From the NCBI RefSeq assembly GCF_023702065.1, contig NZ_QFDM01000001.1, positions 744,001 to 808,000 of the forward strand: a stretch of 64,000 nucleotides of DNA, in the 5' to 3' direction. This document shows, one piece after another, positions 7,133 through 12,492 of the stretch; position 1 is the first letter of the stretch; every line of letters begins with the position of its first letter. Origin of the DNA: Methanoculleus oceani. Lineage in GTDB: Archaea; Halobacteriota; Methanomicrobia; Methanomicrobiales; Methanoculleaceae. The position numbers and the translations under genes were made by a program. The notes under the pieces are model-generated. The model was not told where the DNA came from and made no database searches. It was given only the letters and a program-made list of their open reading frames with translations.

Positions 7133-8437
7133 TTACGGGCTCTCCGGGTTTGCGACCCGTCCCATAAAGAGGATCGTGCCGGAATCCTCCTCGACGATGA
7201 GGAAGACGAACGGGTGGTCCGCCCGGAAGACGGGTGTGAAATCCTCGACCGGCGCGCTCTTTAAGTTCACGACGACCCCGGTTGCCGCCGCGGCCTCGGT
7301 GCCTTCCTCGTTCACGTCGACGAACGCCTTATGAACGACCTCGCTGATGAAGAGCATATCCGTGCCGTCCATCCCCGAGAGGTCGGCTTCACCGGTGAAC
7401 GCCGTCGGCATCCCCATCGCCGCAAGCGTCGGCGGGAGGCTGTACTCCGTCTCAAGCGTGAACTTCGGGAAGAAGACCCTGACGCGCTCGCGGACCAGCG
7501 ACTCCCGCAGTTCGGCGAGCGTCTCCGCGTCCAGCGCCTCCTCCGCAGCCGTCAGGTTGTCTTCCTTTGGGAGGAGGACGAGCATCGAGAGTTCCGTTCC
7601 GTTCCCGTGCGCGTACGGCATCTCAAGCGCCTGGAGGGTGTCGGTCTGTGCATACCCGTAGACGGCGTCCTCGTCCGTCCGCTGCATCATCCTGACCTGC
7701 ACGGTCTCGTTTTCGGCAACCCGGAACTCCTCTTCCGTTGTCTCGTTTGCGTCGAACTGTTCGACCCAGGTACCCTTGAAGTAGATCGCGTTCGTGATCA
7801 CGAGCCGGGTCAGCGGGTTGATCGAACCGGCTGGGAGGAGGTCGCGGATCTTATCTTCGGTCCGCTCCTCCACCCAGCGGTTGATCGTCTGCCGTGACGC
7901 TTCGGGGTTGTTGACGAAGTCGAGGTTCGTGGCGTTTGCCGAGTACCACCGCCCGGCGGTCTCAATATACTCCGGGAGGAACGGGTAAGTCTCCTCCGCC
8001 CAGAGGGCGTTTGCCGTGCGGAGAGTGTAGTTCGCGTCCCCGCTGTTCAGGGCGGCATCAAGCCCGGCAAACCCCGCCCGCCGGAGGCTCTCGTTCTCCG
8101 GGAGGTGCAGCACCGATCCGATCTCGTCGGCGGTCGTGCCCCGGGCGCCCTCGTAGGTGATCGCGAGGGCCGACGAGATGCTGTAGGGCGAGAAGAAGAG
8201 GTTCTGGCCCGCGTATTGCGGATCGCCTGCAAGTTGCCGGTAGAGGTCGGCCGCGAACCGGTTGTTTCCCGCCGCCACGCTGCCGTCCGGTGCCGTCCGG
8301 TTATCCGGCGTCTCCTGCCCCTCGACAGGGGCGGAATCCGCAGATGTCGTCCCCGGCATATCGGTGCACCCCGCGGCGATACTGCCGAGCGCGATGAATG
8401 ACGCCAGGACCAGTAGGCCGATAACGTTTCTGTCCAT
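7133..8437 (-). CDS. Serpin, secreted lipoprotein protease inhibitor
   Basis: The 434-residue protein begins with a signal peptide ending in a lipobox (SIAAGC near residue 24), so it is probably lipid-anchored outside the cell. The serpin fold is clear: FSPYSISSALAITYEGARG near 85, then the reactive-loop hinge EEGTEAAAATGVVV near 385, then FRADHPFVFLI. Counting from the hinge, the scissile bond would lie in VVVNLK-SAP, giving P1 Lys and P1' Ser, which predicts inhibition of trypsin-like serine proteases (inference). ATG at 8437 was preferred over an upstream start because it places the signal peptide at the N-terminus. It is rare for an archaeon to carry an inhibitory-type serpin. Confidence 0.92.
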   Translation of the reverse strand: MDRNVIGLLVLASFIALGSIAAGCTDMPGTTSADSAPVEGQETPDNRTAPDGSVAAGNNRFAADLYRQLAGDPQYAGQNLFFSPYSISSALAITYEGARGTTADEIGSVLHLPENESLRRAGFAGLDAALNSGDANYTLRTANALWAEETYPFLPEYIETAGRWYSANATNLDFVNNPEASRQTINRWVEERTEDKIRDLLPAGSINPLTRLVITNAIYFKGTWVEQFDANETTEEEFRVAENETVQVRMMQRTDEDAVYGYAQTDTLQALEMPYAHGNGTELSMLVLLPKEDNLTAAEEALDAETLAELRESLVRERVRVFFPKFTLETEYSLPPTLAAMGMPTAFTGEADLSGMDGTDMLFISEVVHKAFVDVNEEGTEAAAATGVVVNLKSAPVEDFTPVFRADHPFVFLIVEEDSGTILFMGRVANPESP

Positions 8438-8658
8438 GGTGTGCGTTATGGGATGCCGGATAGTTATACCTGGCGTTGACGACGAATCGTTTCGAAGTCT
8501 TGCGTCCGGCGAGTTCCGCTGCCCGGCCACCCCCTCGGAACCAGAATGGCAAACCCGGCTGCAGGTCCGGAAAGGTACTTTCTGGTCCCTCTCTCCTGGT
8601 GAGAGGATCAGGAGTATTCGGAGATGATCTGGATAAGTTCGAACGTAAAATAAAGAAG

Positions 8659-11469: not shown

Positions 11470-12492
11470 CTACCGGCCGCGCCAGGGTTCCCTGAGCGTG
11501 GCGGGACAGCGGTCGCGGAGGGGGCACGCCCCGCAGTTGCGGGGGTGAGTGGGGCACCCGCACGCCGCGGCATACGCGGCGGTGAGCGCCGCTCCCGGCT
11601 CTCCCCCGTATGCAGGGGCGAGCCGTGCTGCCTCGACGGCTACCTCGTCCGGCACCGCCTCGGGGTAGTAGCCGCTCCAGGCCACGTCCTCGAGCCCCGC
11701 CTTGCGGCAGACCGTGCAGAGGTGCTCCATTTCCCCCCTCGACGGCCCGGGGTGGTAGTAGAGAACGTTGTTCGGCCGAAACCCGATGAGCCGGTAGGGC
11801 ACGCCCGGGTCGAGCGAGGCGATGAACGCTGCGATTTTGCCCGCTTCCCTGTCGGTCATGCCGGGGATCACCACTGTCCGGAAGACCCTGATGCGGTCTC
11901 GCCCCTCGTGCACGAGGTACTCTGCGTTCCTGAGCACCGGGCCCACCGGCGATCCCGTGAGGGCGCGATGGACCGGGTCCGACCATGCCTTGATCTCGAG
12001 GGTGATCACCCGGCAGAGGTCGACGATCCGCTCCATCGTTGCCTCCGTCGCGAAGCCGCCGGTCGAGATCCCGATTCCGAGATCGAGCCCCTGCCGTTTC
12101 ACTTCGGCCGCCACCTCTTCGATGTATGGGAGGTGGATGATCGGGTCGCCGCCCGTAAACCCGATCGTGCGGATACGCCGGCCCCTGTAGGCGGCAATCC
12201 GCTCCCGGGCTTCGGCTACCAGCACCGCCGCGGGCACGTGACCGGCGTAGTGCCAGCCGGGGTCGGGGTACTGCGAGATCCGGTAGGCGTTGCAGTGGAG
12301 GCAACGGTAACAGCACCCGAGCAGGGTGACGATGTAACTCGCAAGAGAGCCCGAACACATCGTCGCCGCCACCTCCGCCCGGCCGACGCGGCATACCCCA
12401 CGCTCTCCCCGGAGGCGGTTGACGCCGCACTTCCACTCGCAGAGGCGGCAGGACTCGAGATCTCCCATATCATTCCCTGGCTGTACATGCAC
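11470..12492 (-). CDS. Radical SAM enzyme with extra C-terminal Fe-S motif
   Basis: The 340-residue protein has the radical SAM cluster motif C-x3-C-x2-C in CCYRCLHC (about 60-67) and the GGDP motif (FTGGDP), as in pyruvate formate-lyase activase-like enzymes (COG1180). An N-terminal Cys set (CRLCEWKCGVNR, then GVCRV) is typical of one subfamily of that group. The C-terminus carries CPTHPRNCGACPLRDRC, spaced C-x6-C-x2-C-x5-C exactly like the [4Fe-4S] loop of endonuclease III. The substrate is unknown. A second possible ATG lies at 12468. No partner protein is evident beside it. Confidence 0.8.
   Translation of the reverse strand: MHVQPGNDMGDLESCRLCEWKCGVNRLRGERGVCRVGRAEVAATMCSGSLASYIVTLLGCCYRCLHCNAYRISQYPDPGWHYAGHVPAAVLVAEARERIAAYRGRRIRTIGFTGGDPIIHLPYIEEVAAEVKRQGLDLGIGISTGGFATEATMERIVDLCRVITLEIKAWSDPVHRALTGSPVGPVLRNAEYLVHEGRDRIRVFRTVVIPGMTDREAGKIAAFIASLDPGVPYRLIGFRPNNVLYYHPGPSRGEMEHLCTVCRKAGLEDVAWSGYYPEAVPDEVAVEAARLAPAYGGEPGAALTAAYAAACGCPTHPRNCGACPLRDRCPATLREPWRGR

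Follow-up and report, generated by a model that had tools for sequence, protein, structure and literature searches.

A radical SAM protein family with a predicted PFL-activase-like fold and a conserved C-terminal four-cysteine motif in methane archaea and other lineages

The gene described here lies on the minus strand of the window (the whole 64-kb stretch of DNA that was analysed) at positions 11470–12468, and encodes a radical SAM protein of 332 amino acids from the ATG at 12468; the host genome comprises 2.46 Mb in three contigs. The preliminary description had opened the frame at the GTG at 12492, which adds eight residues (340 amino acids), but this start is not retained because the ATG at 12468 is favoured both by the alignment of the family and by an AGGGA box located 5 bases upstream of it; all cysteines are numbered below from this ATG. 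The dN/dS values against nine orthologues are 0.12–0.19, and the gene is therefore under purifying selection where it is present. Elsewhere in the window, positions 7133–8530 (minus strand) encode a serpin, i.e. a serine protease inhibitor (PF00079, 399.7 bits), in a methanogen genome.

Three groups of cysteines are recognised in the protein. The first, C-x2-C-x3-C-x11-C (C7, C10, C14 and C26; 12391–12450, minus strand), is N-terminal; the second is the radical SAM cluster motif CxxxCxxC (C52, C56 and C59; 12292–12315, minus strand) of PF04055; and the third, C-x6-C-x2-C-x5-C (C305, C312, C315 and C321; 11506–11556, minus strand), with the letters CPTHPRNCGACPLRDRC, is C-terminal. No other string with the spacing of this last one occurs in any of the window's six frames, and when the protein, with its 17 cysteines, was shuffled 20,000 times, the pattern arose by chance in 23 cases. 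When the window protein was aligned with 47 rows out of the 53 loci L053–L105 (alignment A2, 48 members), the rows of which share 34–92% identity with it, exactly 11 cysteines proved invariant, namely the four N-terminal, the three radical SAM and the four C-terminal ones. Alignments of 28 (A3) and 46 (A4) members further define an invariant C-terminal core, G-C-x4-R-x-C-x2-C-x5-C. The preliminary description had reported the exact C-terminal motif in a PFL-activase-like radical SAM protein with extra N-terminal cysteines, and had counted up to three sites; sequence, frame and motif are as it stated, PF04055 is matched, and judging from the sequence, the three invariant groups can fairly be taken to represent up to three metal sites.

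Relatives were gathered from 40 genomes of the Methanoculleaceae, from a class sample (match in 34 of 232 genomes at an E-value of 1e-25, a few of them fragments), from a phylum sample (match in 54 of 392 drawn genomes at 1e-40 with profile A1) and from a collection scan, of whose 509 relatives the best 80 were kept; the outgroup is therefore a sample. Loci L053–L105 were assigned to the family and L106–L132 to the outgroup by score and not by motif, full-length family rows scoring at least 312 bits and outgroup rows at most 125 bits. The C-terminal motif is kept in 79/81 distinct full-length family proteins, a count made after ten distinct rows had been excluded as too short (those at contig ends, those of broken genes, and the incompletely extracted L038, L039 and L049); the other two are a frameshifted record (L037, which is the same as L064) and L156, where a one-residue insertion gives C-x7-C. 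The exact N-terminal motif occurs in 72/81 of these proteins. Among the 27 outgroup rows from the best 80 of 509 relatives, none carries the C-terminal motif (L120 being cut by a contig end) and all contain an N-terminal C-x2-C-x3-C-x8-12-C; thus the N-terminal group is shared, while the C-terminal group marks the family. As for homologues without the C-terminal cysteines, to which the preliminary description had looked as counter-evidence, none was found within the family, and those that exist are the 27 distant outgroup rows. No description of this family was found in literature titles and the beginnings of abstracts, a coverage that also took in passages of PMC12413448 and outside which subscription papers mostly lie.

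The window protein matches PF04055 with 73 bits (cut-off 29.5), and a Pfam scan at an E-value of 1 returned only Radical_SAM and Fer4_12, with no SPASM, PF10588 or HhH-GPD model. Its best NCBIfam models are glycyl-radical activases and the AmmeMemoRadiSam enzyme, all below cut-off: YjjW (64.9 against 250.2), TIGR04337 (AmmeMemoRadiSam; 55.1 against 220) and PFLA (53.7 against 231.75). TIGR04337 matches 48/48 members, and models named for twitch or SPASM domains match 18–19 of the 48, the matched segment not being given. The AlphaFold model, which is cofactor-free (mean pLDDT 88.1, pTM 0.83), finds its best fold match in the PFL activating enzyme, with a Z of 21.8 and an rmsd of 2.6 over 224 residues (range 29–264 of the model), followed by NifB (Z 16.8). 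Most of the 50 PDB alignments listed stop near residue 264–270, with three (5hr7, 5hr6 and 9gm3; Z 12–14) extending to residue 327–331. The remaining C-terminal extension, about residues 265–332 (11473–11676, minus strand), is modelled as helices followed by the cysteine loop.

Several known enzymes are close to this protein. It shares with PflA (PDB 3cb8/8fo0) and YjjW-type activases the radical SAM motif and, in the model, the fold over residues 29–264 at 19% identity, but it scores far under their family cut-offs, bears extra four-cysteine groups at both ends, and its host genome yielded no match to PF01228 (Gly_radical) or PF02901 (PFL-like), and hence no PFL-type glycyl radical enzyme. 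The canonical work of a glycyl-radical activase is unlikely for this reason. The AmmeMemoRadiSam enzyme resembles it, by eye, in the radical SAM core and the N-terminal CxxCxxxC...C, but the host genome's own member of TIGR04337, a different gene which meets the cut-off with 344.1 bits, carries paired CxxC motifs in its tail (by eye). L003 of the host genome, which we take to be a PflX-like activase homologue, has by eye the same N-terminal C-x2-C-x3-C-x11-C spacing, but no C-terminal cysteine cluster, and is 27% identical over residues 12–174.

The tail loop resembles known iron-sulfur loops in its C-x2-C-x5-C part. PF10588, the His-Cys cluster loop carried by both NuoG and [FeFe]-hydrogenase, matches 6/28 tail peptides (best E 4.2e-7), against a noise level gauged by an unrelated complement C7 module that matches 3/28 (best E 0.018). 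Ten full-length members tested gave no PF10588 match over cut-off (best 24.1 against 27), and the best PDB sequence match of the tail profile, a weak one, is the Fe-hydrogenase alpha subunit 7p5h (E 0.51). The NuoG-type pattern H-x3-C-x2-C-x5-C can be read in the histidine-bearing family members, but the histidine is missing in many others while the first cysteine of the tail motif is invariant, so that the four cysteines are the likely tail ligands. Predicted alone, the tail (75 residues) forms a small helical unit (pLDDT 82.5), to which none of 8 aligned PDB chains matched with a Z of at least 2, which is not proof of a new fold. The tail is probably an iron-sulfur loop of the C-x2-C-x5-C kind that is convergent in origin, and we infer an auxiliary iron-sulfur site serving electron transfer or substrate contact.

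The family occurs in methane archaea, Thermoplasmatota, Hodarchaeota, Wukongarchaeota and a few bacterial records. On a tree of 49 rows it forms two main branches, one well supported (33 rows) and one weakly supported (16 rows). The former, which holds the window protein, comprises Methanomicrobiales, Methanophagales (ANME-1), Methanosarcinales and ANME-2 kin, together with three rows labelled only Euryarchaeota; the latter comprises Thermoplasmatota, Hodarchaeota, Wukongarchaeota, Methanopyri, Methanocellales, Methanomicrobiales and several bacterial records. The nearest genus-named relatives of the window protein on this tree are Methanoculleus records. The family label requires two changes, because two tail-less outgroup rows from Thermoproteota (L125 and L127) are placed at the family base on a long branch; a single origin is for this reason not fully settled.

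Within the genus the gene is patchily distributed, being present in 18/35 genomes and not found in 17/35, some of which are incomplete drafts (80–90% complete). Remnants of it adjoin the gene for ribosomal protein S6e, as in the window's gene block, in two genomes (G003 and G007; L028:1501-1608 and L052:4405-4485). This absence, together with the remnants, indicates that the gene is dispensable there and has been lost at least twice. G109, from a different family of the same order, likewise holds a broken copy. In G036 a fragment covering the first 30 residues (L051:16512-16601, 73% identity) is located some 11 kb away from the intact copy, and is perhaps a partial duplicate.

No conserved neighbour across lineages was seen in the loci compared, and a conserved operon was rejected as clusters shared beyond the window's close relatives read as antisense frames or generic families. 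Local associations were nevertheless recorded, among them that with a MEMO-like gene taken up below. Some ANME-1 loci (L085:6004-6957, minus strand; also L149, L157 and L158) contain a methanogenesis marker 12 homologue convergent with the family gene, that of L085 matching TIGR03281 with 329.9 bits. A second radical SAM gene, encoding about 270 amino acids, lies directly downstream of the family gene in two loci (L095:6020-6838 and L103:5966-6778) and near it in a third (L086:2670-3419), and its product may work together with the family enzyme in that branch. This gene was found in 5/232 class genomes, one of which (G223) also has a family member, and in none of the window's genus; it thus does not explain the window's gene and was discarded as its partner.

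The reading we favour, with a probability of roughly 0.55, is that this is a radical SAM family of the PFL-activase fold with three metal sites, including an auxiliary [4Fe-4S] cluster in the tail, which probably acts on a protein; it draws on sequence comparison and the structural model. The [4Fe-4S] cluster held by the central CxxxCxxC would cleave SAM to yield the 5'-deoxyadenosyl radical, which would in turn take a hydrogen atom from the target held on the barrel's open side. Given the kinship with the activases, the target would most likely be the backbone or a side chain of another protein. A PFL-type glycyl radical enzyme is an improbable target, since none was found in the host genome; the substrate may also be a small molecule. 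The four C-terminal cysteines would bind the auxiliary [4Fe-4S] cluster, which could relay an electron into or out of the active site or else fix the substrate; an electron-transfer role is plausible. The four N-terminal cysteines, common to PflX-like and AmmeMemoRadiSam-like enzymes, may bind a further cluster or zinc.

The alternative that fares best, though rather unlikely, is that the tail loop is a structural zinc or iron-sulfur knuckle without redox function, which serves to stabilise the tail or to dock a partner protein. Four cysteines with such spacing could form a zinc site, and the prediction of the isolated tail as a small helical unit is compatible with it. By eye, paired CxxC motifs resembling zinc ribbons are found at the tail end of many outgroup rows and of the host genome's own AmmeMemoRadiSam enzyme, and because these motifs stand at the same end of the protein, the metal site of the tail may be a docking element. 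The C-x2-C-x5-C spacing, however, resembles the iron-sulfur loops matched above through PF10588 and, weakly, 7p5h, and not CxxC ribbons, which argues against this alternative.

It is quite improbable that the protein is a second AmmeMemoRadiSam-type enzyme acting with a MEMO-like protein. Such a role would fit the matches of TIGR04337 to all 48 members, as well as the MEMO-like gene that converges on the family gene in three loci from Thermoplasmatota (L086, L094 and L098), its copy in L086 scoring 299.9 bits on AmmeMemoRadiSam protein B. The window protein nevertheless remains far below the TIGR04337 cut-off, its genome already possesses a proper member of that family, and a homologue of that MEMO protein was found in no other locus compared, the flanks being short.

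For the branch of methane archaea, one could further conceive of a three-cluster enzyme that places an unassigned radical modification on one of the proteins of methane metabolism, conceivably methyl-coenzyme M reductase, with the tail cluster serving as a built-in electron relay. Very little likelihood is attached to this proposal. None of the results of the analysis ties the gene to methyl-coenzyme M reductase.

The preliminary description had called the tail loop endonuclease III-type and saw in the unusual combination a hint of a nucleic-acid or special electron-transfer role. On a corresponding reading, a true EndoIII-type iron-sulfur loop would bind nucleic acid and the enzyme would modify DNA or RNA. 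The C-x6-C-x2-C-x5-C spacing is indeed identical to that of the EndoIII loop (PF10576), and in the host genome the radical SAM gene is the second-best match of this model (17.1 bits) after one that passes the cut-off with 35.2 bits. For the profile search for both motifs in one protein, proposed in the same description, the window protein gives a match above cut-off to PF04055 and one below it to PF10576 (16.9–17.1 bits against a cut-off of 20.5). At an E-value of 1 the model matches only 1/28 C-terminal peptides, namely that of the window; at 0.2 the orthologues are absent from its matches in the sister genomes searched, and frames of 24–53 residues score about as high as the radical SAM gene in these genome searches. 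An hhalign comparison of the family tails (77 rows, 53 after filtering) with archaeal EndoIII tails (14 rows) gave a probability of 46%, which exceeds all ten shuffles with the cysteines fixed (0.4–26.6%), yet much of this score is spacing and is not enough to warrant a claim of kinship from the sequences. Kinship beyond spacing was consequently rejected, and with no HhH-GPD domain in the Pfam scan and no nucleic-acid gene seen travelling with the radical SAM gene, neither the endonuclease III relationship nor the nucleic-acid hint is upheld; the chance that the enzyme modifies DNA or RNA is very slight.

The host genome also encodes a split NrdD (L163–L165; G000:C1:595589-598738, outside the window), the large part of which lacks the glycyl-radical end and contains an intein-like insert of about 1.4 kb, while the glycyl-radical end is a separate protein of 120 amino acids with several CxxC pairs (L164:1312-1674; C1:269364-269723). 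That the radical SAM protein, given its predicted activase fold, activates this split anaerobic ribonucleotide reductase is highly unlikely and was disfavoured, as the small glycyl-radical protein is present in 39/40 family genomes and NrdG2 in 38/40, including the window's genome and every one in which the radical SAM gene was not found; the only two with no NrdG2 match (G024 and G032) do carry the radical SAM gene, but are drafts (84% and 82% complete) from which NrdG2 may simply be missing.

The results thus delineate a coherent radical SAM family, so far without a name, which is set apart by a tail cysteine cluster absent from the outgroup rows (drawn from the best 80 of 509 relatives). 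Other activases carry a ferredoxin-like insert, and SPASM and twitch domains are other solutions for housing auxiliary clusters. If the tail cluster is redox-active, the family would offer a compact alternative to these, and a simple means of studying the role of auxiliary clusters. The patchy distribution of the gene inside one genus provides natural comparisons of genomes with and without the gene.
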